The notes under the pieces are model-generated. The model worked only from the letters and a program-made list of their open reading frames with translations. It was not told the origin of the DNA and searched no databases. A DNA stretch of 64,000 nucleotides from Novakomyces olei. Its lineage: Eukaryota > Ascomycota > Novakomycetes > Novakomycetales > Novakomycetaceae. The position numbers were made by a program, and so were the translations under genes. Shown one piece after another: positions 17,279 through 64,000 of the stretch. The DNA is taken from contig JADEYG010000006.1 of assembly GCA_016906335.1 (NCBI GenBank), positions 32,085-96,084 of the forward strand, in the 5' to 3' direction. Position 1 is the first letter of the stretch. Each line of letters opens with the position of its first letter.

Positions 17279-17448
17279 TATTTAGTATTAATTATTTAAT
17301 ATCTTTATTATATATATATAAAGATATAATAATAATAATAATATTAATTATAATATATATATATATATATATTGATATAAAAAATATTATTATATATAAT
17401 ATATAAAATATATAAATATAAAATATAAATATATTAATATAAAAATTA

Positions 17449-26961
<9,513 letters not shown>

Positions 26962-40092: not shown

Positions 40093-42855
40093 TATTAAAT
40101 TAATAATTTATATCTAATAAATAATTTATATTTAATAAATAATTATATTTAATTTAATTATTAAATTATACACAATTAATAATATATAATAAATAATTTT
40201 AATATTTTTATATCTTATTATAAATACTAAATATATTTTATATTTTATATTTTATAAGAAATGCATTTTATATTTTATATTTTATATTTTATATTTTATA
40301 TTTTATCATAAATGTATTTTATATTATATATCTTATCTTATTATAACTTATTATATTTAATTATATTAAATTATATCTAATTATATATTTGTGATAATAA
40401 ATTAAGTATTATATGTATATATTTATGTATATATAAATTATAATAATTATTATAATATAAATATAAAAAATATAAAATATATATCATACATTTGATATAA
40501 TTTGATATATATATATAATCTATAGAGTATAACAATCTGTAAAAATATTTGTTTTTTTACTAATATAATATTATTAATTAATATTAGTAAAATATAATTA
40601 AATAAAAATTTAATTATAAAATGTTTTATAAAGGAATAATTAATTAAAGTATGCGAATTTATATAGAATATAGGTGTATAATATTTCAAAATATTTTATA
40701 TATTAAAATTATAATAAATTAATTTATTATAAATAATTAATAAGATAAAAATATAACCTAAATGTGAAAACATATAAATAAACTTATTGAATTGAAATAT
40801 CTTAGTAAATAAAGGAAAATAAATCAAAATATAAGAGATTATAATAGTAGTTAAGAACGAAATTATAATAGCCATTATAATATATATTTTATATATATTA
40901 TAAATTAATTAAATTTGCTAATAATTAGTGGATTGAATAAAAGGTGAACTATCATCAAAGGCTAAATACTATATAAATATCGATAGTGAAAAGTACTGTG
41001 AAGGAAAATACTAAAAAAGTTATTCTATAAGCATATAAAGATTATAATAAAATTATAATTGATATAGTAACTTTTGTATAAGCGGTCAATAAATCTTATA
41101 TTTATGCAAGATAAAATAATAAATAATCAATATAATAATATATATATAAGTATAAATATAAGAACGCGAAACCTAATGATCTTAATTAATATAAGAGTTA
41201 AGTCTGAACCGGTGATTGTGGCAATAATCTCGGATAATATTAGTTAAGTAGTGAAATGTTAAACGTATTAGGTTATAGCTCGTTTACAGCGAAATATATC
41301 TAAGTATAGTAATAATATTTATAATTAATAATGATAATGCTATTTATTATATTAGGCTTTAATATAAAAATTACTATTATAATATAATCAATGAATTATA
41401 ATTAATTTAATTTATTATTAATCAGGTTATTAGTGATAAGGTTATAATCAAATTGGAAACAACCAAACACATATAATAAGGTCCTTAAAATATTATTAAG
41501 TGTTTTTAAAGAATAATTATAGTTTATACAATTTAAATATTAGCTTGGAAACAGCTATTATATAATGAACACGTAATAGTGTATAAATCCATTTATCTTA
41601 TATATATATATTATTATATATATATAATTAATATTATAATTAACTGAAAATTTATCGGGACTAAAATAATATACCGAATTTATGTATATTATTTTAAATA
41701 TAAATAAAACTATTTAATTTAATTAATTTAGTTTAAATAATAATATATTTATTATAATATGGTAGCTGTATATACAATATATGTATGATGTATAATAATT
41801 ATAATATTATATTGACATATTTGTAGAAAGAATTTTGACATGAGTATTGCATAAAAGATTAATATATATAATATATATATAATTATTATAAATAAAAAAA
41901 AATAAATAATAATTATAAAATAATCTTCACCTAAACTCTAAAGATTTAATAAGAAATGTTAAAATCATTTAAAGATAACAATAAACGGTATCTAAGTATA
42001 ATATCGATAGATATATACGATGATAAAATATTTTATTTATAAAATTATATAAAATAAATATATAATCAGGAAAAATTAAATAAATATAAACCGTACTTTA
42101 AACCGACACAGGTAGAGTAAAAAGCATAAAAGTGCAACGGTGTTCAGATAACTATTATAAAGGAACTCGGCAAATTAAGGACGTAACTTCGGGAAAAGTT
42201 CTGATTATTATAATAATATATTATATTATATTTTATTTTATTCTATTATTATAATGGTTTCAATAAAGCTTGTTTATACAACTGTTTATAAAAACATAGC
42301 ACTTTGCAAAAAAGTTAATTTTTAGTATAAAGTGTGATACCTGCTCAATGCTATTAAATAATAAATATATTATATAAATTTATATCTATTTATTTATATA
42401 TAATATTTATGTAATATATATTAAACAATAGTAAATGGCAGTCTTAACTATAAGGATTCTAAGGTAAATTAGATTATCGTTGCCTTAATTATAAATTCCA
42501 CTATATGCTAAGAAAATCTTATAAATATATATATACAATAAATTTATTTTATTATTATATTAAATATAATATATTATTAAATATAATATATTAACTTAAA
42601 CTATTATATTTTACAATAAATATATTATTAAATATTAAATATATTATTATATATTATTAAGTATATAATACTAAAAGTATATAATTAAATGTTTAATATA
42701 AATATTATATAATAATTATAGTTATTAATAATATATTTAATATGTATAATAATTTATGATAATAATCATAATCATAATAATAATAATAAATTATATAATA
42801 ATATAATAATATAAATAAAATAATAACAAATATTATAAATGTTAACTGTATATTA

Positions 42856-42880
42856 GGTGCAAAAAATTTTAAATTTTTTT
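42856..42880. repeat. GGTGC-type hairpin in rnl intron 1
   Basis: GGTGCAAAAAATTTTAAATT followed by TTTTT, preceded by AAATGTTAACTGTATATTA, the same TTAACTGTAT flank as in the 6.7-12.8 kb array. The right GCACC is missing. Confidence 0.7.
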
Positions 42881-43297
42881 AATAAGATATTTGTTATATT
42901 TATAATATTAATATTATTAATTATTATTAAATATTTAATTTAATTAATATCAAATAATATATAATATATTTATTTAATATAAATAATATAATAAATTTAA
43001 TATTTATAAATCAATTAGCAGGAAACTTATAATAATATAATAAAGATATAATATATATTTAATAATAATATTTTATTAATATATATATGTATATAAGTTA
43101 TATTATATATAAGGATCCTCAGAGACTATACGTGGATAATATAATATATATATAAATTAAATAAATGTTTTTATATTATAAATAAAATAATAAAGTAAAG
43201 ATTATAGATATATTATATTATATTAAGAAATAGTCCAAAATATTTAAAATAATTATTTATTTGATATTTTATTTATAAATAAGTTATTAAATTTCTA

Positions 43298-43435
43298 GTG
43301 CAAAAATTTTAGTTTTAATTTTAATTTTAATTTTAATTTTAATTTTAATTTTAATTTTAATTTTAATTTTAATTTTAATTTTAATTTTAATTTTAATTTA
43401 AAATCTAATTTAATTTAATCTAATTTTTTTTGCAT
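43298..43435. repeat. Expanded GGTGC-type hairpin in rnl intron 1
   Basis: Starts CTAGTGCAAAAATTTTAG and ends TTTTTTTTGCATGG, with about fourteen copies of TTTTAA between, so the palindrome has been stretched by a hexamer expansion. It lies about 60 bases before the 3' splice site. Confidence 0.75.
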
Positions 43436-45123
43436 GGTAATAGCATTTAAATAAATGAAATAATTAAACCAAAAATAATTTAAATATTTCACTAGAGCGA
43501 AATCTCTTGTCCACTAATTATGGTCCAGCATGAATGGCGTAATGATATAAACACTGTCTCTATAATAGACTGAAAGAAATTGGAATGGTTGTGAAGATAC
43601 AATCTTATTACGGTTAGACGAGAAGACCCTAAGCATCTTAAATACTAATAAAGATTGATTATTTAATATATTTATTAACTTATTCATAATATTATATTAA
43701 TATAGATAAAAATCTTTAATTTATCATTTAATTTAATATTTCATAAGTTATTATTAGTAATCTTATTGTTAAAGATTTTAATTAAAAATAATAAAATATT
43801 TTTAATAGTTTTGTTTTTAACATAAATATTAATAGTTATATTTTATTTAATATAATAAATAAAATACTATGACAATCTTTATGAGGTATTTTAATTGGGG
43901 CAATTGCTTCATAAAAAGAAATTGAAGTTACCAAATATTCATATATATTATATTAATATTTATATTAATATAATACAATATAATAATATTAGTATTATTA
44001 TATATATTAATATATATTATGATAAGATATAGTATAAATAAAATGGTAATTTATAATTAATAATCTTAATTTAATAAATTTAAGATATTATCAATATAAT
44101 TAATTGATAAAGATAATTAATAATATTTAATTGTAGAACTATGTCTAACTTAAAGATTGACAAATCGATAAGATTCGTAAGGATGGAATAATAAACCTAA
44201 ACTAATAAATAGAAATGGTTTAGATAAAGATATAAGATACGCTAGGGATAACAGCCTAATTGCTTAAGATAGTACATATTGGCTATAGCAGTTTGGGACC
44301 TCGATTTGAATATAAATATTAATATAAATATAAATATAAATATAAATATAAATATAAATATAAGAGTTAAAGTTGAGGTAAATATTATATATAAATAGAA
44401 TATATAATAATAAATTGGGTTAATTGACAAGAATAACTTATTATTTATATAAATATAATAAGTCAACTTGCAGCGAAACTATATATAATATAAATATATA
44501 ATAACTTTGTATATAAATATATAATATAATATAAATATATAATAACTTTGTATATAAATATATAATATAATATAAATATATAATATAAATATAAATATAA
44601 ATATATAGAACGTTCAACGACTAGTTAATAAATAAAATTAACCATGAAATCCAATAATTAATAAAAGTTTGGTTTGATAAATAAATAAATTTATTAATTA
44701 AATACATAGTCTGAACCTTTTAGTGATAAAAGGAAATAAAGATTAAAATTCTTTATGATAACAAAGAATTATTTAGTATAGAAATAAGTATAATATTGTT
44801 AATAAAAATAAAAATATTTAAATAAACAAAAATCATTAATAGATCATTTATTTAATATATTTGATTCTTATACTCTAAGGATAAGGGATAAGGGATAACA
44901 AAATGTATTATTATTTAATAATAAATGATTATAAAAAATTAAATGACTTTGCTTATTATCATCAAATATTTTTATTTTTATTATTATTATTATTATTTTT
45001 ATTATAATTTAAATATAAATTTTATACTAAATAATAAATAATTGGTCGACTCTACGTACCTATTGGTGTAGTAACTAATAAGGGTATGTTTGTTCAACAT
45101 TTAAAACGTAACGTGAGTTGGGT

Positions 45124-46545
45124 TAATTCTTAGCCCCATATATATATATATATATGTTAACTGGATAAAAACGGTGAAGGTTATAATAAAGATTATAAAT
45201 AACACCGTGGTAATCATAATAATAAATAAATATGACACTGTAACGACTAAATAAAATAAAATAAATTTGACTAACAAGTTATATATAATATATTATATAT
45301 AAAATAATAGTTGGTAATACTTCCAGCAACAATATAATAATATGGTTATTTATATATTTTTGAATATATATATCCTTATTAATTGTATATAATATAGATA
45401 ATTAATAAATAAAAAATAATAAAACAAATAATGATAAAACAAAGAATATTAGAATATTAGAAGATTTAATAAAATTAAGATTAATAACACCATTAAAACC
45501 ATTATCAAATGATATTTTAAAGATAATAGAAAAAAACTTATTAAAATATAAAATATTAAATGTAGATAATATAAATGATGAGTATATAAGTGGTATAATA
45601 CAATCAGATGGTAGTTTTTCATTAACTATAAGAAAAACAAGAGATTATATACATATAGTACCAAAATTTACATTAAGATTAAATAAGAATAATAAAGATT
45701 TGATATTAAAAATTAAAAGTGTATTAGGTGATGTAGGTAATTGAAGTTTAAATAAGAAAGATAATACAATATGTTATGAAGTGACAAAATTAAAAGATTT
45801 AGATCAAGTAATAATACCTTTTTTTACAAAAAATGATTTAAAAAGTAATAAACATTTAAATAGTTTTATAATATTAAAATACATTGTATCAATAATGAAA
45901 AGAAAACTTCATATTAAGGATAATAGATTATTGTTAGATATGATAATATTAGGTAGTAAAATGAATGATAATTATTTGTATAAAGATATACATAAAAAAT
46001 CAATAAATATAATTCATAATGATGAAAAATATAAAAAAGATATGATGAAATATGTAAGATATTTAAATAAAAGTCAACAAGATATTGTAATAGATCAATT
46101 ATTAACAAAAAATACTGAATTAGAAATAAATAATATGATGTATAATTATAATCCTACATCATTTAACGCAATGTATTTGCATGGTTTAATAGATGGAGAT
46201 GGATCTATTATAATATATAACTCTTTATCTAAATATGTAAGATTTACTATAAGTATAGCACAAGATTATACAAATTTAACATTACTTAAAGATTTATATA
46301 AATATTTTGGTGAAATAGGTAGTATAACTAAAATATCAAATAAAGGTTATAGATATGATATAAAAAGTAAAAAGGATATTATAGAAAAAGTAATACCTTT
46401 ATTAGAATACAAATATAATAATAATATTCATTTAGGTGTATTAAAAGGTTATAAATTAATATTAATGAAAATAATATGGGATATAAAAAATATATAATAT
46501 ATATAAATAATTTATATATTGTTGAAGATATAGTCTAAATAAAAG
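45124..46545 (+). mobile_element. Group I intron with LAGLIDADG ORF, rnl intron 2
   Basis: Interrupts GAGTTGGGT|TAAGAACGTCGCGAGACAG in the peptidyl-transferase domain (near E. coli 2585 by my alignment). 1422 bases, beginning TAATTCTTAGCCCC and ending AATAAAAG. Core pieces include GTTAACTGGATAAAAACGGTG (45154), CACCGTGGTAATC, CACTGTAACGACTAAATAAA, GTTGGTAATACTTCCAGCAAC and GATATAGTCTAAAT near the 3' end. Confidence 0.88.
45431..46497 (+). CDS. LAGLIDADG endonuclease of rnl intron 2, start out of frame
   Basis: The LAGLIDADG frame is open from 45409 to TAA at 46495-46497, with TGA as Trp at 45742. Motif 1 YISGIIQSDGSFS (near 45583) has lost the usual LAGL but keeps the Asp; motif 2 YLHGLIDGDGSIIIYN (near 46168) is standard. 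No ATG lies in this frame before motif 1. The nearby ATG at 45431 is in another frame and hits TAG after nine codons. Between them AATATTAG is present twice in tandem (45445-45460); without one copy the ATG would be in frame. So either the gene is recently inactivated at its start or it starts at a non-ATG codon. Confidence 0.8.
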
Positions 46546-47019
46546 TAAGAACGTCGCGAGACAGTTCGGTTTCTATCTGCCGTAATATATATAATAAAAT
46601 ATCAAATTTTCCTTTAGTACGAAAGGACCAAGGTAAAATTAACCAATGGTGTTATTGTTATTTATATTTAATATTAATAAATTAATTATTATTATTATAT
46701 CTATAAGTATCTCGCAATAAAGCTAAGTTAATAATAAATAATTATTGAAAGCATATAAAATATAAGAAGTTAATTGATGGATTATTTATAAAAATACATT
46801 ATAGATTATAATGAATATAATATATATATATAAAATAATATATATATATATAAATAGGTAATAATTGTAAATATAAAATCTATAAAATATAGAAATTATA
46901 ATTGTTTATAATTAATAATAATTATAAATAATAAAGATATATTATACTAATTTATAATATTTTAACTAAAATATCACAGATTGTTATCATAAATAAAATA
47001 TAAAATATAAAATATAAAA

Positions 47020-47092
47020 GTCTAATTAATTTAATTGGTAAAATGCATATCTTGTAAATATGTTACTAATAGTTCGATTCTATTATTAGACA
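47020..47092 (+). tRNA. trnT: tRNA-Thr(TGT)
   Basis: Acceptor GTCTAAT pairs perfectly with ATTAGAC. Anticodon arm CATAT-CTTGTAA-ATATG gives TGT. First tRNA after rnl. Confidence 0.92.
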
Positions 47093-47323
47093 ATATAAAA
47101 TATAAAATATTATAAAAAATAAAAATATTAATATTTTTTAATATTGGATAACTTATATTTATAAATAAAAGTTTGATAAATATTTCATATTTATTTTCTA
47201 AGAAATAATAGTTTAATAAATAAAAAAGATTTTAATTTTTAATAAACAAAGACAAATATAAAATACAAATCAAAGTCTTTAATAAAATATTAAAAATATT
47301 AAATTTTAAGTTAATAACCAATA

Positions 47324-47413
47324 GAACAAATGACCGAGTCAGGTTTAAGGTGCTATACTTGAAATATAGTGTAATATAATCTATTACCACGTGTTCGAAT
47401 CACGTTTTGTTCG
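47324..47413 (+). tRNA. trnS2: tRNA-Ser(TGA)
   Basis: Acceptor GAACAAA pairs with TTTGTTC. Anticodon arm CTATA-CTTGAAA-TATAG gives TGA. Long variable arm around AATATAATCTATT. T arm CGTG-TTCGAAT-CACG. Confidence 0.93.
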
Positions 47414-47613
47414 TTAATATAAATTATATAATAATATTTATCATTAAATATAATATAATATCATTAAATATCATTAAATATCATATTTTTAATAGATATT
47501 ATAGATTTAATATTTTATTTTATTTTATCTATCGACTTTGGTTTTAATATACAATTAATAAATATTAAATATATTATATATCTTATATAATAATAATAAT
47601 AATATAAAATAAG

Positions 47614-47686
47614 GGGGATATAATTTAATAGGCTAGAATATTGTAATTGCACTACAGTTATATGGGTTCAAATCCCATTATTTCCA
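47614..47686 (+). tRNA. trnA: tRNA-Ala(TGC)
   Basis: Acceptor GGGGATA pairs with TATTTCC through two G-U pairs. Anticodon arm TTGTA-ATTGCAC-TACAG gives TGC. T arm ATGGG-TTCAAAT-CCCAT. Loop base 32 is A, as in tRNA-Gln here. Confidence 0.88.
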
Positions 47687-47767
47687 TATTAAATAATATA
47701 AATTTTATTTACCATAAATAAACATAAACAATTAATAACTACTATTAATATTAATATAATAAAATAA

Positions 47768-47839
47768 GCCTGATTAACTTAATGGTTAAAGTGTGATATT
47801 GAAGATGTTAATATAGTGGTTCAATTCCATTATTGGGCA
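47768..47839 (+). tRNA. trnF: tRNA-Phe(GAA)
   Basis: Acceptor GCCTGAT pairs with ATTGGGC (T-G and G-T wobbles inside). Anticodon arm TGATA-TTGAAGA-TGTTA gives GAA. Confidence 0.88.
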
Positions 47840-47874
47840 TAATAATAATAAATTTAATATAATATATAATATTA

Positions 47875-47962
47875 ATGGTTATGATGAAATTGGTAGACAT
47901 GTATAATTTAGGATTATATAATAATAATAAATATTATATGGGTTCAAATCCCATTAACCATA
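47875..47962 (+). tRNA. trnL1: tRNA-Leu(TAG)
   Basis: Acceptor ATGGTTA pairs perfectly with TAACCAT. Anticodon arm TATAA-TTTAGGA-TTATA gives TAG. Long variable arm. T arm ATGGG-TTCAAAT-CCCAT. A Leu-type tRNA for CUN supports normal Leu decoding of CTN rather than the Thr reassignment of some yeasts. Confidence 0.9.
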
Positions 47963-48577
47963 ATTATTATTAAAATAATATAAATATAATTATAATAATA
48001 ATAATAATATAAAAGTTTAAAATAAAAAATATAAAAGTTTTTAAAATAAAAAATATAAAAGTTTTTAAAATAAAAAATATAAAAGTTTTTAAAATAAAAT
48101 TTTTTCACTAGAAATCTTTGTTTATTGGTAAGATTATATTAAATATATAAAATATATGTATATATAAATATATTTGATAATATTTGATAAATATCATATA
48201 AATATATTATATAATATTTTATAAATATAATATTTAATAATAGGTATCAATTATATAATATTTTATAAATATAATATTTAATAATAGGTATCAATTATAT
48301 AATATTAATAATAAGTATTAATAATAAATATAAATATATAATAAGTTAATATGACATTGTTTTATTTTATAGAATACTTATAGGTGCAAGCACCTTAACA
48401 TCAGTTATATATTGAAATTAATATTTTAACTACTTTATTTATAATGTTAAATATATATATATATATCTTAATACATATTATTAAGTTAATAACTAAAATA
48501 ATTTATAATATTATATATATCTTATTATAATATAAATATATATATCTTATTATATTATTATATAATAATGTATAGTA
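47963..48577. other. Spacer tRNA-Leu to tRNA-Gly
   Basis: Four copies of AAAAATATAAAAGTTTTTAA near 48012-48098, then TTTTTTCACTAGAAATC (a hairpin right half), two copies of ATATTTTATAAATATAATAT near 48208-48280, and the minimal hairpin at 48383. No gene seen. Confidence 0.7.
48383..48394. repeat. Minimal GGTGC hairpin
   Basis: GGTGCAAGCACC, a perfect 5-bp stem with an AA loop, followed by TTAACATCAG, the usual hairpin flank. It looks like a copy whose A/T arms have been deleted. Confidence 0.8.
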
Positions 48578-48649
48578 GCAGATATAGGTTAATTGGTAAA
48601 CTCAATGATTTCCATTCATTTGTTGTCTGTTCAAGTCAGATTATCTGTA
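48578..48649 (+). tRNA. trnG: tRNA-Gly(TCC)
   Basis: Acceptor GCAGATA pairs with TATCTGT. Anticodon arm AATGA-TTTCCAT-TCATT gives TCC. T arm GTCTG-TTCAAGT-CAGAT. Confidence 0.9.
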
Positions 48650-48851
48650 AATATTATTATTAAATATTTAAATTTAATATAATTTCTTTAAATTGTTTAT
48701 TAAATAATATTATTAATTGTTTAGTTTACTAAAAGCTAACTATTATATAATATATGAAATATATTATATCTATTATTTAATAATAATTTGATATAAAACA
48801 TTTTATTTAATTGTATTAAATATATTATTTATATATTATCACAATATTTTA

Positions 48852-48924
48852 GGGTTAATAACTTAATTGGTAAAGGGTTTATTTGTCAGATAAATAGATG
48901 CTCGTTCGAATCGGGTTTAGCTCG
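48852..48924 (+). tRNA. trnD: tRNA-Asp(GTC)
   Basis: Acceptor GGGTTAA pairs with TTAGCTC. Anticodon arm TTTAT-TTGTCAG-ATAAA gives GTC. T arm GCTCG-TTCGAAT-CGGGT. Confidence 0.9.
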
Positions 48925-49323
48925 ATTAATATATATTATATATTATATATTATATATTATATATATACTTATATCTATATTATATATATGCTGCTTATAT
49001 TTATATTATAAATATCTAATTATATTTAAATATAAATAATTAATAATTAATAATTAATAATATGATATTAAAATTACTTTAATTAATTAAATATTAAAAT
49101 TTTTATTGCAAAAGCTTTATATTTTATTAATTAAAATAAAAGCATATTATTTAATTTAATATTAAAGATATTTGAATATATCTTATTTAATATTTGAGAT
49201 ATATAATATTATATATATATTGTTTATCAAAGTATAAACTATTAAAATATATTGTATTATATAATATTATAATTAATAATATATTTATATATATGATATA
49301 TGATATAATATTATTATATTTAT
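48925..49323. other. Spacer tRNA-Asp to tRNA-Asn
   Basis: About 400 bases of TATATA, AATTAATAATTAA and a partial hairpin-like TTTTTATTGCAAAAGC near 49099. No gene seen. Confidence 0.6.
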
Positions 49324-49395
49324 GTTACCATAGCTCAACGGTTAGAGCATGATACTGTTAATATTATGATATTGGTTCGATTCCAATTGGTGACT
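49324..49395 (+). tRNA. trnN: tRNA-Asn(GTT)
   Basis: Acceptor GTTACCA pairs with TGGTGAC. Anticodon arm TGATA-CTGTTAA-TATTA gives GTT. T arm ATTGG-TTCGATT-CCAAT. Confidence 0.92.
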
Positions 49396-49460
49396 TAATT
49401 TTAATATATTATTATTTAATATATAGAATAGATAAATATATTTAAACTTAATAAATATTA

Positions 49461-49543
49461 ATCTACATGCAGAAATTGGTAGACTGGCTAATCTTAAGAT
49501 TTAGTATTGTATAAATATATGGGTTCAAGTCCCATTGTAGATA
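49461..49543 (+). tRNA. trnL2: tRNA-Leu(TAA)
   Basis: Acceptor ATCTACA pairs perfectly with TGTAGAT. Anticodon loop CTTAAGA gives TAA; the top pair of the anticodon stem (CTAAT/TTTAG) is a T-T mismatch. Long variable arm. T arm ATGGG-TTCAAGT-CCCAT. This tRNA reads TTA, the dominant Leu codon here. Confidence 0.9.
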
Positions 49544-49864
49544 TTTTAATATATATATTACATAGATATTATATTTAATATATTTGATAATATAATATAA
49601 TATAATATAATATAATATAATATAATATAATATAATATAATATAATATAATATAATATATCAAAGTCTTTAAATAAGTAATATATAATAATAATTTATTA
49701 TTATATAGATAATATATATATATATATATTTAATAATAATATTAAATATTATAATTATAATAGTGTGTTATAATAATAATAGAAAGTTATATTTCTATGA
49801 AATAATTATATATGTAATATAAAATAATATTATATATATAAATAAAAATAAATAAAATAATAAA
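49544..49864. other. Spacer and atp9 leader
   Basis: A TATAA pentamer run of about thirteen copies (49589-49656), then AT spacer. GTGTGTTATAATAATAATAG near 49764 and AGAAAGTTATATTTCTAT near 49782 (small stem-loop) may belong to the atp9 leader; inference only. Confidence 0.6.
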
Positions 49865-50089
49865 ATGTTACAAGCAGCAAAATTCATAGGATCAGGTTTA
49901 GCAGCTATTGGTTTAGCTGGAGCAGGTATTGGAATTGGTATAGTATTTGGTAATTTATTATCAAGTACAAGTAGAAATCCAGCATTAAGAGCTCAATTAT
50001 TTAGTTATGCTATATTAGGTTTCTCATTAGTTGAAGCTACAGGTTTATTCTGTTTAATGTTATCATTCTTAATATTATATGCAGCTTAA
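49865..50089 (+). CDS. atp9: ATP synthase subunit c (F0 ring)
   Basis: Proteolipid of the F0 ring, 74 residues. Two helices with the glycine-rich first helix [19 protein letters not shown], the polar loop [10 protein letters not shown] and the proton-binding Glu in [13 protein letters not shown]. Start ATG 49865 gives the usual [12 protein letters not shown]-terminus. Confidence 0.98.
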
Positions 50090-50679
50090 TTTAATTATAT
50101 AATTAAATTATCTAATAATAATATTAAAAAACAAAATATATATTTAATATTTATTGTAAATGATATAATAACTTTTATATATAATAATTAATTAATAATA
50201 ATTTAATTGTTTATTTAAATTGATATCTATATCTAATCAATATATATGTATTATTATATATTAAATTAATAAGCCCTATTTATATAATTAAATATTAAAA
50301 TTTTATATAAATAAAAAAATAAAAAAATAAAAATAAATTAAACTAAATAGATAATATATAATTATATTTATAATATATTGTAATTAATTTAATTAAATTA
50401 TATTATATATAATAATAAATAATATAATATCTATAAATAATAAATAGTATAGTTTAAATATATATATATATATATACAAATTATATAAATAAAAGTTTAT
50501 TTTAGTTTATAAATTAAAAATAATCTATTTTATTTAATTTAATTTAATTTAATTTAACAAACTTTTATAATAAATAAAATATATTTATATAATTTAATAT
50601 ACATAAAATATAATAAAACTTTTATTATAATTATAATCAAACTTTTATTATAATTACTTATAAATAAAAATATAATAAA
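50090..50679. other. Spacer atp9 to nad4L
   Basis: About 590 bases, AT-only, with ATTTAATTTAATT runs and TATAATTATAATCAAACTTT repeats just before nad4L. No gene seen. Confidence 0.65.
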
Positions 50680-50952
50680 ATGAATACAGGTATATTATTA
50701 TATATAATTGGTTTATATGGATTTATTAGTAATAGAAAAAATATAATAATTATGTTAATAAGTATAGAAATTATTTTAATATCAACTACTTTTATGTTAT
50801 TATTAAGTAGTTATTATTATGATGATATATTAACACAATTATATAGTATATATATAATATCTATTGCTGGTGCAGAATCAGCTATAGGTTTAGGTATTAT
50901 TGTTAGTTATTATAATATTCATGGTAATGTTATAATACAAAAATATCAATAA
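50680..50952 (+). CDS. nad4L: NADH dehydrogenase subunit 4L
   Basis: Three-helix complex I subunit, 90 residues. Conserved membrane Glu residues are in LISIEIILIS and AGAESAIGLGIIV. The usual fungal nad4L-nad5 order is kept, but instead of overlapping they are nearly 1 kb apart here. Confidence 0.96.
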   Translation: MNTGILLYIIGLYGFISNRKNIIIMLISIEIILISTTFMLLLSSYYYDDILTQLYSIYIISIAGAESAIGLGIIVSYYNIHGNVIIQKYQ

Positions 50953-51937
50953 ATATTATTTATAATTTAATATTATATATATATATTTATATATATATTA
51001 TTATCAAATATTTAATATTTATTATATTATCAAATTATTTAATTAAAGTATATATATGATTATGATTATGATTATGATTATAATTATCATTATTATTATA
51101 ATTATGATTAAATATATTGTATATTAATATAAAATAAATTATATATAAAATATAAATTTATAATAATGAAGTTTGTAATATAACTTAGGTTTATAAATAA
51201 AAAAATTAAAAATTTTTATTTAATAAAATATTTAACTCATTTATTGATATAAATATTAAATATATTTAGTATTTTATTAAATGTTATATATTTAATATAA
51301 TTTAATATAATTAAATATGAAATATATTAAATATAAATGATATATTTGATTTGATATAAAAGGATATATTATATATTAAAATATATCTAAGTTATTTTTA
51401 TTGTTATTTTTATTGTTATTTTTATTGTTATTTTTATTGTTATTTTTATTGTTATTGTTATTAAATTAAATGAAATAATAATATTATTATAATTAAAATT
51501 TTAATTTGTATTTTTGTAGAAAGAATTAATAAATAAAATATTAAATAAATTAATTTAATTAAAAGTAAAAGCTTTTATTATTTTTATTATATTTAATTAT
51601 TATAATATAATATACAATATTAATAACATATATAAAAGTTTGTAATATATAATATTAATAATATATATGATATAAAAGTTTGTAATATACAATATAAATA
51701 ATATACCATATTGATTTGATAATATAATAAATATTAAATATTAGATAATAATATATATTATATATATAATATTAAATTATAGATAATAGGTTGTTATATA
51801 TTAATATATAATAAATAAGAGTTTGTAAAATAAATATACTAATTTATAAGAATAATAGTTTACTTTATATATATGTATATATATATAATAAATATATTAT
51901 AATTATATGATAATAAAATAAAAATTTTAAAGAATAA
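50953..51937. other. Spacer nad4L to nad5
   Basis: About 985 bases without a gene. TGATTA repeats near 51056-51080, seven copies of TTTTTATTGTTA-like units near 51395-51462, and AAAGTTTGTAATATATAATA repeats near 51634-51700. Confidence 0.7.
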
Positions 51938-53940
51938 ATGTATTTATGTATATTATTATTACCATTATTAAGTTCAATATCGAGTGGATTATTAGGAAGA
52001 AAGATAGGTATAAGAGGTAGTCAGATATTATCAAGTACATTTATGATAATATCAATGTTAATAACATTATATACATATAAACATATAGTAATTGATGATA
52101 ATATAATAACAATAAATATAATAAATTGATTAAATATAGAATCATTAAATATAAATTATTTAATATTATTAGATTCTTTAAGTATATCAATGTTAATACC
52201 AATAACAATAATATCAACATTAGTACATATATATACAATATCATATATGAGTAGTGATCCTCATCAACAAAGATTTTTAAGTTATATATCATTATTTACA
52301 TTTTTTATGATGTTATTAGTAACAGGTTCAAGTTATTTAATAATGTTTATAGGATGAGAAGGTATAGGTGTAAGTTCATTTTTATTAATAAATTTCTGGT
52401 TTCAAAGTATAGAATCAAATAAATCAAGTATTAGTGCTATATTAGTTAATAGAGTTGGAGATATATTTATAACAATATCAATAGCTTTAATATATTATAC
52501 TTATGGTAATCATAATTATAATACAATTAATAGTATAAGTATTTATATAAATAATAATACAATATTATTTACAATAGGTTTATGTTTATTATTAGGTAGT
52601 ATGGCAAAATCAGCTCAAGTACCATTAAATAAATGGTTACCAGAATCTATGGTAGCACCAACACCTACATCTGCTTTATTACATGCAGCTACTTTAGTTA
52701 CTGCTGGTGTATATTTATTAATTAGATCTTCTTATATTATAGAATTAAATGATACTTTATTAATTATTATTATGTTTGTTGGTGGTTTAACAACTATTAT
52801 TAGTGGTTTAATTGGAGTATTACAATATGATGTAAAAAGAATAATAGCATATAGTACTTGTAGTCAAATTGGTATGTGTTTTGTTTCTATAGGTATATCT
52901 AATTATAATTTATCTTTATATCATTTAATTAATCATAGTATGTATAAAGCTTTATTATTCTTATGTGCAGGTATAATAATTCATTCATTAAATGATGAAC
53001 AAGATATTAGAAAAATGGGTGGTTTAATAAATTATTTACCATTTACTTATAGTTGTATGTTAATAGCTAGCTTTTCTTTAATGGCTATACCATCTTTAAG
53101 TGGTTATTATAGTAAAGATTTAATTATAGAATTAACTTATGGTAAATATTGTATAAGTTCAATAATATGTTTTTATTTAAGTTTAATTAGTGCTATAACA
53201 ACTAGTTTATATTCTATGAAAATATTATATAATATTTTTTTAAATATACCAAATAATAGTAGAAAATTTAATTATATTAATTGTTTAGAAAGTGATATAT
53301 TTATGATAATACCTTTAGTTTTATTAACTTTATTAAGTATATTTATTGGATATTTAACTTCAGATATATTTATTGGACCAGGTTCAATATTATATTCAGA
53401 TACTTTATTTAATAAACCTTTTAGTAATAATATATTAGATTTAGAATTTAATATACCAATTTATATAAAATTATTACCATTAATTGGTAGTATATTTTTT
53501 AGTTTATTATTATTATATTCATATGAAATATTACAAAATAAATTTATTAAAAATAAATATAATAATATTGATATAAATTAAGTAATATAAATTATATATT
53601 AAAAAGTAATAAATTAATATTAAATATTTTTACATTTATTAATCAAAGATTTTATCATGATATTATATATAATAGATATTTAACTATTACACCTTTAAAT
53701 TTAGGTTATGTATATTATAATATATTTGATAAAGGTATAATAAATAAAATAGGTCCAAATGGATTATATTATACTTTAAAAAATTATTCATCTAATATTA
53801 TTTATCTTAATAATGGTAAATTATTTAATTATATTATTTACTTATTATTATTAATTATATTAAGTTTTTATATAAGTTTCTTTAATATTTCTGATCAATT
53901 ATTCTTATTATTCTTTATTATATCTTTATACTTTATATAA
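51938..53940 (+). CDS. nad5: NADH dehydrogenase subunit 5, apparently frameshifted
   Basis: Largest antiporter-like subunit of complex I. Frame A runs 51938-53581 (547 residues) with TGA as Trp at 52127 and 52357. It holds [79 protein letters not shown] and [10 protein letters not shown]. It then stops at TAA 53579-53581. The family's C-terminal part continues in the -1 frame: open from 53566 to TAA 53938-53940 (124 residues), with [30 protein letters not shown] and a final helix. The frames overlap by only 13 bases. Joined, they give about 665-670 residues, the normal size. Either a sequence error, a real mutation, or programmed frameshifting; the 3' part is clearly coding by codon use. Confidence 0.9.
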
Positions 53941-54068
53941 TTATTATTATTATTACTCTTTTATTTAATATTTAATAATATAATATAATATTATTTAATA
54001 ATATTTATAATTAAAGTATATAAATATAATATTTAATAATAATTATTAATGGTAATAAACCATAAACA
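53941..54068. other. Short spacer nad5 to tRNA-Arg
   Basis: AT spacer with ATGGTAATAAACCATA, a small stem-loop, near 54049. Confidence 0.5.
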
Positions 54069-54144
54069 CTTATTTTATAGTTAAATAGGTATAACATAAT
54101 ACTTCTAATATTATATTATAGGTTCGAGTCCTATTGAAATAAGA
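54069..54144 (+). tRNA. trnR: tRNA-Arg(TCT)
   Basis: Acceptor CTTATTT pairs perfectly with AAATAAG. Anticodon arm TAATA-CTTCTAA-TATTA gives TCT for AGA/AGG. T arm ATAGG-TTCGAGT-CCTAT. I found no tRNA for CGN Arg in the window. Confidence 0.92.
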
Positions 54145-54352
54145 AATAAGAAATAAGTAATAAATACCTTTAACTATATTAAATATATTAATATATAATA
54201 ATTCATAATAAATAAATATATTAATTATATATTAAAAATACTAAATATATTAATAATATATCTTATTATTTATTTATATAATATAATATAATATAATATC
54301 AAAGTCTTTAAAATACATATAAATATATATATAAATATCAAAGTCTTTAAAA

Positions 54353-54436
54353 TACATATAACATATAACATATACATATAACATATAACATATACATATA
54401 ACATATAACATATACATATAACATATAACATATACG
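54353..54436. repeat. ACATATAAC-type 22-bp tandem repeat
   Basis: TACATATAACATATAACATA recurs four times with a two-base spacer, the last copy ending in TACGTATA. Spacer DNA between tRNA-Arg and tRNA-Val. Confidence 0.85.
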
Positions 54437-57400
54437 TATATTATACTTAATATTATATTAATTTATAGTTAGTTATAATAGTATTAATAATAATATATAA
54501 TAATATATGAAATATATAATTATTATATACAAATATATAAGATATGAATATATATAAATATATAAATATATTTAATATAATATATTTACTTTACAGTAGG
54601 TATATAATATATAATTAATAATTTAATATTGATAAATATAAATATTAAATAATATAATATAATATATTGCATATATTATATTCACTATATTAAAGTTTAT
54701 AAAATATAAAAACATTAGATTTATTTATACATTTATATTATAGTTTATAATATCAAATATCTAAATATAATATATATATCTTATAATATCAAATATCTAA
54801 ATAATATATATATATATTAACTATATAATAGTAACATTTAATATACATATACATATAATATTTAATACTTATATAACATTTAATATACATATAACATTTA
54901 ATATAAATATTAATATCAAAGTCTTTAAAATACATTTAATATACATTTAATATACATATCTACAATATATAATATAGTTTATTTAATAATATAGTATATT
55001 TAATAATATAGTATATTTAATATAATATATTTTAGTTTATTTAATATATTATTATATTTAATATAATATATAATACTTTTAAAATAAGTATATTACTATT
55101 AATAATAACTTATAAATAATATTTAATATTAAATATATGGTATTTATTATATAATAAAAAATGTACTATTCTATTAAGTAGGATATATCTATCCTTTGTA
55201 ATCAATAATGTATAATATTAGTAAAACATTAATATAATCTTGATAAACATAGCATAGCATAGGTAAAAACTTGTTAAATATTAGTATAATATATAAATAT
55301 ATTGATATAGATATATAAATATATAAATATATAGGTATAGGTAGATATAGATATATAATATATATATAATAATAATAGATATAGATAGATAGATATAGAT
55401 AATAATATATAATATAGATATAGATAATAATATAATAATATATATAAATAATATAATATATAATATAAATAATATAATATATAATATAAATAATATAATA
55501 TATAATATATATAAGTATAATAATATATAAATATAATATCTACTGATATAATAGAATATATATATATATTATATAATAATTATACATAATATAATATCTA
55601 GTAATATAATATATTACATATATTATATCTAATAATAATAGATAAATATAAAACATTAGATAATATTATACTTAATAATTAATATATATAATATAATAAT
55701 ATACCCTTATAATTAATATATTATAATATAATATATCTTATATATATATATAATATCTTATAAATAAATAATATAAGTATAAGTATATAATAATAAGTAT
55801 ATATACATTACTATAATAAGTATATACATAAATATATAATAAGATATACATATAATAGATATAAATAATATATTAAATATATAACCAATATATATTAAAT
55901 ATAAATAATATTATAATAAATATAATATTACATGTATAATATAATAATATATAAACATATAAATATATAAATATATAAATATAAAGTTTATATGTTAAAC
56001 ATCATTTAACCATACCTGAACTATAATATTAAAGAATATACAATATATTTATTTATAGTAATAATATTAAAGAATATACAATATATTTATTTATAGTAAT
56101 AAAATAATTAATTATATATATATACAACATATACATATATTAATTTATATATATATACATATTAATTTATATATACATATTAATAAATAATATATTTAAT
56201 ATAATAATATATTCTTAAATATAAAAGTAATATATATTAAAATAATTAATAATTATAGTTATAATAATAATAATTAATATTATTATAGTAATAATTTAAA
56301 GATAATTATAATAAATAATATCAAATAATATAATATATGTAATATATTATATCTAATAATAATATATAAAGTATAAAACATTTGTTATTATAATTAATTA
56401 TATCTATAAATTATAAATATATTATTAATAAAATAATAATAATTTATATAAATTATATTTATATATAATATACATATACATATAATATACATAGTTAATA
56501 TTTTATATACATATATAATATCCATAGTTAATATTTTATATACATACTAAATATTTAGTACATATATATAATATAGATATATTTTATATAGATATTAATA
56601 TATAATATAGATATATATATATATAATATATATAAAGATATAAAGATGTAATATACATATATAAATATAATATAGATATATAAAATATTAAATAAATATA
56701 TTAAATATAGTATATATATTAAATATAAATCTAAATATAATATATTAATATAATCCAGTAAATATAATTCAACCATACTTGAATAATAATATTAAAGAAC
56801 TTATTAAATATAATAATATATTAAACATAATAATTTATTAAATAATATAATATAGATAAATATATAAAATATATTAAATATCATAATTTATATATATAAT
56901 TATAATTCTAATTGTTATAATTATAATTTATATTGTTATTATATAAATTATCCATTAACTATAATTATATAATAAATCTAATAAAATAATATAATATATT
57001 GCATATATTATATCTAATAATAATAAATAAATATAAAAACATTTGATATTTTATTTATTAATAATATTTATATTTATTAATAATATATAATTTAACTATA
57101 AATATATAAATATATAATATAGATATATAAATATGATATATGATATATAATATATATATATATAATATTAAAATAAATATATCTTTTCTATTATTTACAA
57201 TAGATAAATATATTAAATATAATAAATATAAAATAATATAAAATAAATATAAATAAAAAATATAAATAAATTTAAAGTCTTTGATTATATTAATAAGAAT
57301 CAATATATAATTTAAAAGATCTTAGATTATATATAATATATATAAATTATAAATTAACATTACCTTTCCTTTATAGTAAATTATAAACTATATTAAATAA

Positions 57401-58207
57401 TATATATTATAATATACTTAATATAATATACTTTATATTAAATATTAAATATAATATATTAAATATTTAATATTTAATAATATAATCTAATATAATCTAA
57501 TATACATATACTTTTATATTAAATAAAATAATATAAAGTTAATATCTAATCTAATATATTAAATAAAATAATATAAAGTTAATATATAATATATATAATA
57601 ATAATGTATATTAAATATATATATATATAATATTTAGATAATATACTTTATCTATAAAGTTAATAAATATAATATCAAATAATATAATATATTGCATATA
57701 TTATATCTAATAGTTATAGATATATGTATAAAAACATTAGATATTTTAATAAAATATATAAATAATATATACAAATATATATATACATATAAATAATATA
57801 TTTATAAATATAAATATAATATCTATAAACTAATAAATATAAAATATAAATAAATTTAAAGTCTTTGATATAATATAAAATATAAATAAATTTAAAGTCT
57901 TTGATATAATATTAATTATAAATAAATTTAAAGTCTTTGATATAATATTAATAAGAATCTATATATTATTTAAGAAATATTAAATTAGATTTAATATAAT
58001 AAATAATAATATATAATATAATATAATATAATATATTAAATATAATATATATAAGATAATATTAATAGTATAAATAACATTATATAAATATAATATATAT
58101 ATATATTTTAATAAGTAATAAATAATAAATAATAAATAATAATATATAAATATTAAATATATATAAAGATATAAATATTATTATTCTATAAAGATAGAAT
58201 GATAGTA

Positions 58208-58360
58208 GGAGCAAAAATAATAACTATAAAAATAATAGTTATGTAAATAATTATATAAATAAAAATAATTATATAAATAAAAATAATTATATAAATAAAA
58301 ATAATTATATAAATAAAAATAATTATATAAATAAAAATAATTATATAAATTTTTTGCACC
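58208..58360. repeat. Expanded GGTGC-type hairpin
   Basis: Left end GGAGCAAAAATAATAACT, right end TTTTTTGCACC, with about six copies of AATTATATAAATAAAA between them. Right flank ATAACTTATG. Third example of a hairpin whose loop holds a tandem expansion. Confidence 0.75.
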
Positions 58361-59190
58361 ATAACTTATGTTTATATTAAAACTATATTTTATAGACTCA
58401 TCATATATTTTATAGATTTATCTATTATCATATATATATTAAATATATATATATATTAATTATTTATATTTATAATATTATACTTTATATAATATATTAT
58501 TAATATATCAAATCAAATACTTAATATTTTATACAATATACAATATAACAATATAATATAACAATATATTTAATATTAAATAAAATAATATAATACTTAA
58601 TATAAGTTAAGTTATATATATTATAATATATATAATATATTACATATATTATATCTAATATCTATATAAAGATATATAAAAACATTAGATTTATTTAATT
58701 AAATTAAATTAGATTAATAACTTATAAAACTATTAATTAAAACTATATTAATATTTTAAAGTTATTATTAAATATAATAATATATAATAATATATAATAA
58801 TATATAATAATATTTAATAATATATAATAATATTTAATATAAGCTTATTATTATATCATAATAATATATTTGATATATATATATATATATATATAATTAT
58901 TATAATAATATAATATATAATAATAATATATTTAATATAATTATAATATAAGATATATATATAATAATGATAGTAATAATATATAAGTTTATAAAATAAT
59001 ACATATATTAAATATATGTATATGTATATAATATAAATATAAATATAAATATTAATAATTAATATATAAATATAAATATAATATTAATATAAATATAAAT
59101 ATAAATTATAGAGATATATAATTAAATATATAAATATAAATATAAATATAAATTATAGAGATATATAATTAAATATATAACTTGATATCT

Positions 59191-59224
59191 GGTGAAAAAA
59201 ATTTATATCTAAAATTTTTGCACC
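59191..59224. repeat. GGTGC-type hairpin element
   Basis: GGTGAAAAAAATTTATAT and TAAAATTTTTGCACC arms, after AACTTGATATCT. Confidence 0.75.
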
Positions 59225-59455
59225 TACTTTAATATAACATTTATAATATTTTATTCATTAACTATATACAAATATTTTATTTATTATTTATTAAACTTAA
59301 TATAAATACTTTATTAAAACTTAATATAAATACTTAATTAATAATTAACAATGATCAATTTATATAATTATTTATTTTTAAAATAAAATAAAAGTTTTTA
59401 AAATAAAATAAAATAAAATAAAAGTTTTTAAAATAAAATAAAATAAAATACAATA

Positions 59456-59536
59456 AATACATTATCATTATCATTATCATTATCATTATCATTATGATTA
59501 TCATTATTATTATCATTATGATTATCATTATGATCA
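59456..59536. repeat. CATTAT/GATTAT hexamer microsatellite
   Basis: Thirteen or so hexamers of the form ATTATC with scattered A-to-G changes. Confidence 0.85.
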
Positions 59537-60874
59537 TATATATAATATATATATATAATTTAATTAAATAATAGGTTTTAAATAAAAATATATATATTAT
59601 TTATTAATTTTAACAATAAATTAAATACAATTACTAATAATTATATTTAATACTAATAAATAAACATTATAGTATTAATTAATCTTTAATTATGGTGCAA
59701 AAAAATATTTATTATTTTTTAATATTATTTATAATAATCATATTATTTATAATAATCATATTATTTATAATACTAAACTAATATCATTAATTATATTAAA
59801 TATTATCCATTAATTATATTAAATCAAATATTATCATTAATTATCATTAATTATATCGAATATATTATAATTATTATATATTTAATATAATATATAATAT
59901 ATAACTTATTTTAAAATAAAAGTTTTAATATTTAATAATGGTTTTAATTAATAAATAAAATATAGTAATTTATTTTTTTATAATATTTTAAAGAAGTCTT
60001 AGTCTATAATATATTTAATATTTAATATAATATATTTAATATAATATAATATAATAAAATAAACATTATAGTATTAATTAATCTTTATTTAAAAGCATTA
60101 AGTATATTTATAATTATAATTATTTTATAATCTTATTAAAATATTATTATTTATTACTATGATCTAATACTAGATATTATTAATATTATTTAATAATATA
60201 ATATTATCCAATTATTATATATAATATAATAATAATAATAATCTATTTAATAATTTAATGATATTATATTTTTACAAACTAAACTAAAATAAAATAAAAT
60301 AAAATAAAAGTTTTTAAAATAAAATAAAATAAAATAAAATAAAATAAAATAAAATAAAATAAAAGTTTTTAAAATAAATTAAATTAAATTAAATTAAACT
60401 TTAATAAATTTATATTAATAATTTAAGATATGTTTAAATAAACATTATATTAATAATTTAAGATATGTTTAAATAAACATTATAATATTAATTAGTCTTT
60501 ATTTAAAAGCATTAAGTATTTATTTATATTATATATAACTTATATTAAAATTAAAAAGTAGATTATATTAAATATAATATAATATAATATAATAAAGTTT
60601 ATACAATTATATATATATATTAATATAAATATAAGATATATATTAAACTATAGATAATTTATTAATATTATTGTTAATATATATATTATATTAAATATTA
60701 AATATTAAATATATTATATGTATATTATATTGTAATTAAATATTATGAAATATTATTAAATATATTATTAAATATTATGTAATATTAAATATTATCATTA
60801 AATATATATATATATATATATTTAGTATAATATAATATATAATAAACATTAAATATTAATTAATCTTTATATCT

Positions 60875-60905
60875 GGTGCAAAAAATTTAAAATTTAAATT
60901 TTTTA
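60875..60905. repeat. GGTGC-type hairpin, right end missing
   Basis: GGTGCAAAAAATTTAAAATT then TAAATTTTTTATA. It follows AAACATTAAATATTAATTAA and TCTTTATATCT, whereas the related units at 60061 and 60475 continue with ATTTAAAAGCATTAAGTAT and lack it. Confidence 0.7.
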
Positions 60906-61325
60906 TATTATTTATATATTACAAACTTTTATATCATATATATAATATATGTAATATATTATATATATCCATTATATCTTTATTTATTGATTGGTTAATA
61001 TACAATATTATTAAATATACATACATATCTATAATAATAATCTATTATTATATTATTATACTATTTCAATATATATATATATACACATATATATAATATA
61101 TCTATATTATATAATTAATATTTTATTTATAAGATTTTATTAAATATATTTATAATTAATTATTTTATATATATTTTTCTATAACTATATAATGGTTTAT
61201 ATTAAATATTATTATTATTAAAGATATTATTATTAAGAATATTATTATTAAAAATATTATATAATATTAATTGTTATTATTATTATTATCATTTATTTAA
61301 TATATTTTAATATGTATATATAGAA

Positions 61326-61401
61326 GAGAAATTAGTCAAGTTTGGTTTAAGGCATTATCTTTACACGATAACATACATAGGTTCAAATCCTGTATTTCTC
61401 A
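61326..61401 (+). tRNA. trnV: tRNA-Val(TAC)
   Basis: Acceptor GAGAAAT pairs perfectly with ATTTCTC. Anticodon arm TTATC-TTTACAC-GATAA gives TAC. T arm ATAGG-TTCAAAT-CCTGT. Confidence 0.93.
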
Positions 61402-61819
61402 AATATTATAGTTAATTTTATTAATTATAAATTTATTATAATACTTTAAAATATAATAAATATAATTAATAATTATAATAAATTATAATGTTAAAATAAT
61501 TAATTAATAATAGTAGCTTATATTTAAAATTAATATTATATGATATTTTATCATTTAATATTTAATATAAAAGTTATAAATTATATATTATTATTTTATA
61601 TTATTAAATAAAAATATAGAAGGTTTTATAAGTTAATAAAAACAAAACTTATATATTTTAAAATATATATTATAGATATATATATTATTATATTATATTT
61701 AATAATATTTAATAATAATTATATATTTTATTTAGAAATGTTTAAAATAATAAAGTATAATATATTTATATTTTATTTATAAAACAATTCAATTATTATA
61801 AAATTTATAAATAATTTAA
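61402..61819. other. Spacer tRNA-Val to atp8
   Basis: About 420 bases of AT spacer, presumably including the atp8 leader. No repeats of note. Confidence 0.6.
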
Positions 61820-61966
61820 ATGCCACAATTAAATCCAGCATATTTTAATAATTTAATTATATTTGGTTTATTATTATTATTATTATTAGTATATATTAGT
61901 AGTTATTATATTTTACCATCTATTTTAAAATTATATTTAAGTAGAAAATACATTAGCAAATTATAA
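61820..61966 (+). CDS. atp8: ATP synthase subunit 8
   Basis: Small single-helix subunit of the ATP synthase stator, 48 residues, too short for the usual ORF cut-off. It starts with the family signature MPQLNPAYF, continues through a Leu-rich helix and ends in the basic tail ILKLYLSRKYISKL. It lies 299 bases before atp6, the normal fungal order. Confidence 0.97.
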   Translation: MPQLNPAYFNNLIIFGLLLLLLLVYISSYYILPSILKLYLSRKYISKL

Positions 61967-62265
61967 TTAATTTATAATTATTTTAAATAAAATTAATAAA
62001 AGATTTAATAAAGTTAATATAAATCTTTTTCTATATAATTATTATTATATAATATAATTATAATTATAATATATAATTATAATAATATATAGTTTTTAAA
62101 TAAATAAAGTTTATAAAATAAAAGTCAATAATATTATAAAAATATTATTATTATAATAATTATAATAATTATAATAAATATAATTAAATATATAATAATA
62201 TAAAATATATTATAATATAATATTAGATAATTTTATAAATAAATAAATAAATAATATAAATAAGA
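61967..62265. other. Spacer atp8 to atp6
   Basis: AT spacer, TTATAATAATTATAATAATT runs, no gene seen. Confidence 0.55.
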
Positions 62266-63066
62266 ATGTCAAATAATATAATAATAAGTTCACCATTAGA
62301 ACAATTTGAGATAATAAATTATATAGGAATAGATGCACCAATATTATTTAATCAAAGTTTATATATAACAAATTATAGTTATCATTTAATATTAAGTATA
62401 ATATTCATAACATTTTTTAATATGATATATACAAGTAATAATAATAAATATGGATTATATAATCATAATTTAATAAGTAATAAATTAAGTATAGTAAATG
62501 AATCAGTATATATGACAGCAGAGAACTTAGTTACAGGTCAAATGGGAAATAATAAGAAATATACAATATATTTACCATTAATATATTCATTATTTACATT
62601 AATATTAATTGGTAATTTTGTAGGTATGATACCATATTCATTTAGTATAAGTTCACATTTAATATTTACATTAGGTATGAGTATAACAATATTAATAGCA
62701 GTAACTATAATTGGTTTTGAAACTCATGGTATAAAATTCTTTTCTTTCTTTGTACCATCTGGTACTCCTTTAGCTTTAGTACCTTTATTAGTTTTAATTG
62801 AATTTGTTTCATATATTGCTAAAGGTTTAAGTTTAGGTATAAGATTAGGTGGTAATATTATTAGTGGACATTTATTATTACATATTATTAGTGGGTTTAT
62901 TTTACAATTTATGAAATCAGGTATAATTGGTTTCATATTTAGTTTATTACCTTTAACTATTTTAATATTAATGTTTGGTTTAGAATTAGCTATTAGTTAT
63001 ATGCAAGCTTATGTTTTCGCTATATTAACTAGTATCTATATCTCTGATTCTATTAATTTACACTAA
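62266..63066 (+). CDS. atp6: ATP synthase subunit a
   Basis: Proton-channel subunit of F0, 266 residues. The short leader MSNNIIIS precedes SPLEQFEI, where yeast Atp6 is cleaved, so processing is plausible. The essential Arg is in SLGIRLGGNIISGHLLLHI, and the last helix has LELAISYMQAYVFAILTSIY. All features normal. Confidence 0.98.
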   Translation: MSNNIIISSPLEQFEIINYIGIDAPILFNQSLYITNYSYHLILSIIFITFFNMIYTSNNNKYGLYNHNLISNKLSIVNESVYMTAENLVTGQMGNNKKYTIYLPLIYSLFTLILIGNFVGMIPYSFSISSHLIFTLGMSITILIAVTIIGFETHGIKFFSFFVPSGTPLALVPLLVLIEFVSYIAKGLSLGIRLGGNIISGHLLLHIISGFILQFMKSGIIGFIFSLLPLTILILMFGLELAISYMQAYVFAILTSIYISDSINLH

Positions 63067-63411
63067 TTTATTATCTTATTTATTCTCATATATTATTATT
63101 ATTATTAAAATATACTAAATATAAATATAAATATTAATATAAATATATATAATATAAATAAATATTATTTAATATTATATTAAATATTAAATATAAAGTT
63201 TTTAAAATATATTTAAATATAATAATAATATATAATTTATAGATAAATCTATAAAATATTAAATAATATAAAATATATTTTAATATAAAACATTAGATAA
63301 TATAAAATATATTTTAATATAAAATATTAAGTAATATAAAATATATCAAAGTCAATAAAAATAATATCTATTATTTTTAATTTAACTTAACTTGCTAAAA
63401 ATAGCAAAATA
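63067..63411. other. Spacer atp6 to tRNA-His
   Basis: AT spacer with three copies of ATAATATAAAATATATTTTA near 63260-63350, and a small hairpin GCTAAAAATAGC at 63394-63405 directly before the tRNA. Confidence 0.65.
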
Positions 63412-63485
63412 GGTAATATAGTTAAATAGGTTATAACAATCAATTGTGGTTTGATTATTTACAGTTCAAATCTGTATTTTTACCC
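63412..63485 (+). tRNA. trnH: tRNA-His(GTG)
   Basis: Anticodon arm ATCAA-TTGTGGT-TTGAT gives GTG. T arm TACAG-TTCAAAT-CTGTA. Acceptor GGTAATA pairs with the TTTTACC side with one T-T mismatch, or, shifted by one, leaves a G(-1) opposite C73 as expected for tRNA-His. Confidence 0.88.
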
Positions 63486-63518
63486 TTAATAATTATAATA
63501 ATTATAATAATAATAATA

Positions 63519-63559
<41 letters not shown>

Positions 63560-63787
63560 TTAAAATACTATATTATATGATATCATATCATATGATATCA
63601 TATCATATCATTAAAAAGTATATTAATATATTAATATATTATAGATAATATATAATAATAATAATAATAATAATAGTTAATATATTTAAATCAAATCAAA
63701 TCAAATCAATCAAATCAAATCAAATCAAAGTTTTTATATTATATAATAATAATATATAATAATATATAATAATATTATAATATATTA
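63486..63787. other. Spacer tRNA-His to tRNA-Glu
   Basis: TAATAA runs, an ATATCATATCATATGATATC palindromic stretch near 63577-63610, and about nine copies of CAAAT near 63688-63728. No gene. Confidence 0.65.
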
Positions 63788-63860
63788 GACCTTATCGTAT
63801 AACGGTAAATACTTTGTACCTTCAATGCAAAAATCTCGGTTCAACTCCGAGTAAAGGTTA
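63788..63860 (+). tRNA. trnE: tRNA-Glu(TTC)
   Basis: Anticodon arm TTGTA-CCTTCAA-TGCAA gives TTC. T arm CTCGG-TTCAACT-CCGAG is strong. Acceptor GACCTT pairs with AAGGTT, with an unpaired A at its base. Confidence 0.88.
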
Positions 63861-64000
63861 TAAATAATAATAATAATAATAATATAATAATAATATTTAT
63901 ATATATATTTTATTTATATAAAAGTTTTAGTTATTATAAAAACTTTATTTTTATAAAAAATAAAAGTATAAGCTTGTCTATTTAAATATATATATATATA
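63861..64000. other. Spacer to window end
   Basis: AT spacer, ending AAGCTTGTCTATTTAAATAT, whose first ten bases also occur at 31069. Confidence 0.4.

Follow-up and report, generated by a model that had tools for sequence, protein, structure and literature searches.

The window, by which the whole stretch of DNA analysed is meant (G000:C6:32085-96084, the final 64,000 bases of the 96,084-base contig C6 in an assembly of 14.3 Mb and 15 contigs), carries a mitochondrial nad5 gene that reads in two frames, and the question raised by this locus is whether the split belongs to the gene or to its assembled letters. In open reading frame analysis, frame A of nad5 runs from the ATG at 51938 to the TAA at 53579-53581, comprising 547 codons (547 aa) with NNIDIN as the last residues, and a second frame, shifted by -1, is open from 53566 to 53940 and encodes 124 aa, including INQRFYHD and one further 15-residue stretch. 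The two frames overlap at 53566-53581, over 16 bases, or 13 without the stop codon. The preliminary description of this DNA had placed the stop after NNIDIN, had located the missing C-terminus of ND5 in the -1 frame, and had given the overlap as about 13 bases; all three statements are borne out by the window's letters, the last if the bases before the stop codon are counted. As explanations it had offered programmed -1 (or +2) frameshifting, translational bypassing, an RNA-level change, and a one-base error in an A/T run, among others.

The 3′ part was examined against protein families and structures. The 124-aa fragment matches the Pfam family NADH5_C (PF06455) with 39.9 bits and an E-value of 4.5e-10, and a search of the PDB with E-values up to 1 returned six distinct sequences, five of which, all with E-values of 4.7e-05 or better, are ND5 chains; the remaining one is an unrelated protein with an E-value of 0.48. 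Furthermore, when the single bases of 53566-53940 were shuffled, none of 20,000 shuffles remained open for 124 codons. On the basis of the NADH5_C match, the ND5 chains, and the shuffling result, the 3′ part is regarded as the real end of ND5. The gene-like codon use previously attributed to this part is likewise found, as G+C content is lowest at the third codon positions in both parts of nad5 (0.048 and 0.040). The coordinates are summarized in Table 1.

Table 1. Features of the split nad5 gene and of the duplicated stretch in the window.
Feature	Position	Strand	Basis
nad5 5′ part as read in the window letters, with premature TAA	51938..53581	+	ORF; Pfam PF00361 and PF00662
nad5 3′ part, shifted to the -1 frame in the window copy; C-terminus of ND5 (NADH5_C)	53566..53940	+	ORF, Pfam, PDB
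Site of the difference between copies: A-run, 3 long in the window and 4 in C6:13141-13682	53575..53577	+	Alignment of copies
Ring stretch assembled again as C6:2-23756 at the start of the contig; the copies differ by 30 events (29 indels)	40266..64000	+	Alignment of copies

The same gene is found a second time in the assembly. A query of 541 bases (window 53400-53940) gave at least 53 matches, of which two are strong. Both lie on C6; one, at 976 bits, is the query region of the window, and the other, at 970 bits, is C6:13141-13682, which exceeds it in length by one base. A nuclear copy as the source of the difference was considered and rejected, the third-best match scoring just 88.7 bits at 70% identity. 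The second strong match is part of a much longer duplication, in which C6:2-23756, the head of the contig, matches window 40266-64000 at 99.83%. One stretch is thus assembled twice within a single contig, as in an untrimmed circular contig; from this alignment the contig spans approximately 1.33 turns of a mitochondrial ring of approximately 72.34 kb, and the mtDNA would accordingly be circular. Because the contig runs about 1.33 times round the ring, window 40266-64000 is represented twice in it.

In the head copy, nad5 is unbroken. Its reading frame extends from ATG to TAA over 667 codons with zero internal stops, and window 53501-53660 differs from it by one base in total, in the A-run of Table 1. 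The split in frame is therefore correctly described for the window's letters and is absent from the other assembled copy. Without its initial M, the translation of the head copy has 666 residues, of which 1-663 align with chain 5 of 7zm7, an ND5 protein, with an E-value of 3.7e-176, and the alignment passes through the junction, which falls in a poorly conserved linker. Against Pfam, the head-copy protein matches PF00662 and PF00361. In a search of the genome with Proton_antipo_M, both copies score 226.6 bits, and the open frame under translation table 11 is 603 aa long in the head copy versus 483 aa in the window. With NADH5_C, the stretch C6:13314-13613 of the head copy passes the cut-off of the genome search; the scores of the head and window copies (39.2 versus 37.2 bits) are nearly alike because their 3′ letters are identical, so the argument at this point lies in the single frame and not in the score. 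A contrary result came from hmmscan, which at E-values up to 1 listed NADH5_C for the fragment and not for the complete head-copy protein. Overall, the head copy holds Proton_antipo_N, Proton_antipo_M, and the C-terminus of ND5 in one frame. Relatives of nad5 were also sought among assembled sequences. At least 550 of 595 stretches in genome_contigs encode one, and the best 80 that were kept are bacterial by title and 31-42% identical; since this identity is too distant for a variable junction, homologues from the PDB were used instead. In viral_contigs, four stretches matched the pattern and none was confirmed as a relative of nad5.

The nature of the difference in nad5 can be judged from the other differences between the two copies. 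They are identical at 23,724 of 23,765 aligned columns, and the remainder consists of 30 events, i.e., 29 indels and one substitution. Most indels (25 of 29) consist of one A or one T, and the same number (25 of 29) adjoin a copy of the identical unit, either in A/T runs or in short tandem units, a pattern characteristic of indel errors in a consensus. The events are unevenly distributed: 16 of the 30 lie within approximately 0.6 kb of a contig end (approximately 1.04 kb in all), with 11 in window 63397-64000 and five in 40266-40699, corresponding in the head copy to the very start of the contig, and the other 14 are spread across the remaining 22.7 kb. The window copy is the shorter one in 11 of these 14 middle events, as counted from the alignment rows. 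The difference in nad5 is located approximately 10.4 kb from the tail end of the contig, outside the dense clusters, and of the three protein genes in the overlap, identified by eye as nad4L, nad5, and atp6, nad5 alone contains a difference.

RNA genes provide an independent test of which copy is correct. Rfam models gave 13 matches at the gathering score in both copies of the overlap, comprising one LSU rRNA stretch and 12 tRNAs. Ten of the 12 tRNAs score equally in both copies. The head copy scores higher than the window copy for the LSU rRNA stretch (81.3 versus 73.3 bits), tRNA-His (48.9 versus 42.7 bits), and tRNA-Glu (55.3 versus 41.9 bits), and each of the three lower-scoring RNAs carries one of the 30 indels. 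In the acceptor stem, non-standard or lost pairs number two in the head copy and three in the window copy for tRNA-His, and zero and one, respectively, for tRNA-Glu. The oddities of tRNA-His and tRNA-Glu in the window (63412-63484, 63789-63859) are suspect in view of their one-base indels and lower Rfam scores. In the LSU rRNA stretch, at window 41085-41839, the indel relative to the head copy is also one base long (41444). Taken together, four of the 30 differences (nad5 and the three RNAs) can be scored by family or frame, and all four favour the head copy, a consistent but small set whose agreement has a chance probability of 1 in 16; no model scored at the sites of the other 26.

Since a second, unbroken copy exists in the same contig, the apparent split of nad5 almost certainly stems from an error of one base in the sequence. 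Very probably, the window's nad5 is an ordinary mitochondrial gene without any break, a single A being missing from its assembled consensus at 53575-53577, and the split is most likely not a real feature. The assembler would have circled the mtDNA approximately 1.33 times and left the overlap untrimmed, such that the tail of the contig (the window) and its head would be two assembled versions of one DNA with residual indel errors; the consensus of the tail copy would have dropped one A, and the head version has the continuous 667-codon frame. The difference would accordingly be a consensus error and not two real molecules. Of the options offered previously, the one-base error in an A/T run is thus supported: C6:13141-13682 has the extra base within approximately 53560-53582 and a single frame, although it is an assembled copy and not a set of independent reads. 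Programmed -1 frameshifting, bypassing, and an RNA-level change find no support.

Real length heteroplasmy would account for the same two copies in another manner. Some mtDNA molecules would have the run of three A and a truncated nad5, others the run of four A and an intact gene, the assembler having taken one version from each; the populations with truncated and intact ND5 would persist side by side, differing in the length of a short A-run within a variable linker. One organism does yield two differing assembled versions, and A/T runs mutate by slippage. However, the overlap of 23.7 kb holds 29 further differences, of which 28 are indels, with one substitution overall, whereas heteroplasmy would probably bring substitutions as well. 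Moreover, differences due to genuine heteroplasmy should show no concentration at contig ends, where 16 of the 30 events are located, and three RNA genes differ likewise, with the lower-scoring version always in the window copy. Heteroplasmy is therefore a weak rival to the consensus error, and both the mixed assembly and the maintenance of two such populations are improbable.

A truly split nad5 from which full-length ND5 is produced by programmed -1 (or +2) frameshifting, bypassing, or RNA editing is the least tenable explanation and very nearly discounted: the 3′ part is indeed conserved and open in the displaced frame, but the second assembled copy has one frame. The earlier statement that no classical slippery heptamer is evident holds, as a scan of 53400-53581 found no in-phase -1 slippery heptamer within the frame overlap. 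Two strings resembling X-XXY-YYZ are present in 53400-53581, at 53495 and 53540, and neither is usable; both are codon-aligned (phase 0), whereas a -1 slip needs a different phase, and the -1 frame is closed downstream of them by the TAA at 53563-53565. Programmed -1 frameshifting was rejected on these grounds. Translational bypassing involves additional untranslated sequence separating the take-off site from the landing site, and is the mechanism that Lang et al. reportedly described in 2014 for the byp elements of Magnusiomyces capitatus mitochondria. The present case resembles it in that a yeast mitochondrial gene is apparently interrupted, but nad5 here has no inserted block: the frames overlap by 16 bases, the copies are one base apart over 53501-53660, and byp bypassing was rejected. 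The byp elements and bypassing of M. capitatus are mentioned in passages of PMC10701893 and PMC4618339, and a passage of the former states that none were observed in coding sequences of other species. For Kazachstania mitochondria, PMC10701893 cites Szaboova et al. (2018) on a +1C frameshift that requires CTGY codons and likewise appears as a one-base break of frame in a yeast mitochondrial gene; CTG is absent from window 53501-53660 and the frame is whole in the other nad5 copy, and this candidate was also rejected.

The consensus error agrees more closely with the homopolymer indel errors of long-read assemblies. As in those, the differences are mostly single A or T indels with one substitution in 30 events, are denser at the contig ends, break the frame of a gene, and lower the fit of RNA genes to their models. 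It differs in that the run in nad5 is just three or four A long. The assembly itself was presumably made from long, noisy reads. Indel errors are a usual residue of long-read assembly, as supported by work on gene-fragmenting errors in long-read assemblies of small genomes (PMC12007338), on residual errors in bacterial assemblies, most commonly in homopolymer length (PMC8812927), and on a yeast genome whose PacBio indels at homopolymer tracts were corrected (PMC6053246). The nad5 case is mainly a caution for noisy-read assemblies of AT-rich organelle genomes. Where a circular contig is left untrimmed, its overlap is an internal replicate, and can settle an apparent frameshift before an exotic mechanism is invoked.

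Two further observations concern other parts of the assembly and the window. A nad1-like fragment with three in-frame TAA codons (83.5 bits) is located on another contig (G000:C7:1121812-1122075, strand -) and may represent mtDNA copied into the nucleus; the nad1 gene belonging to the ring lies outside the window, at C6:26845-27789. Within the window, six long frames (17443-20034, 20427-22031, 25086-26342, 34193-35074, 36190-37203, and 45409-46497) look by eye like putative intron-encoded proteins in cox1, in cob, and near the LSU rRNA; they appear reverse-transcriptase-, LAGLIDADG-, and GIY-YIG-like, and some are continuous with the upstream exon.
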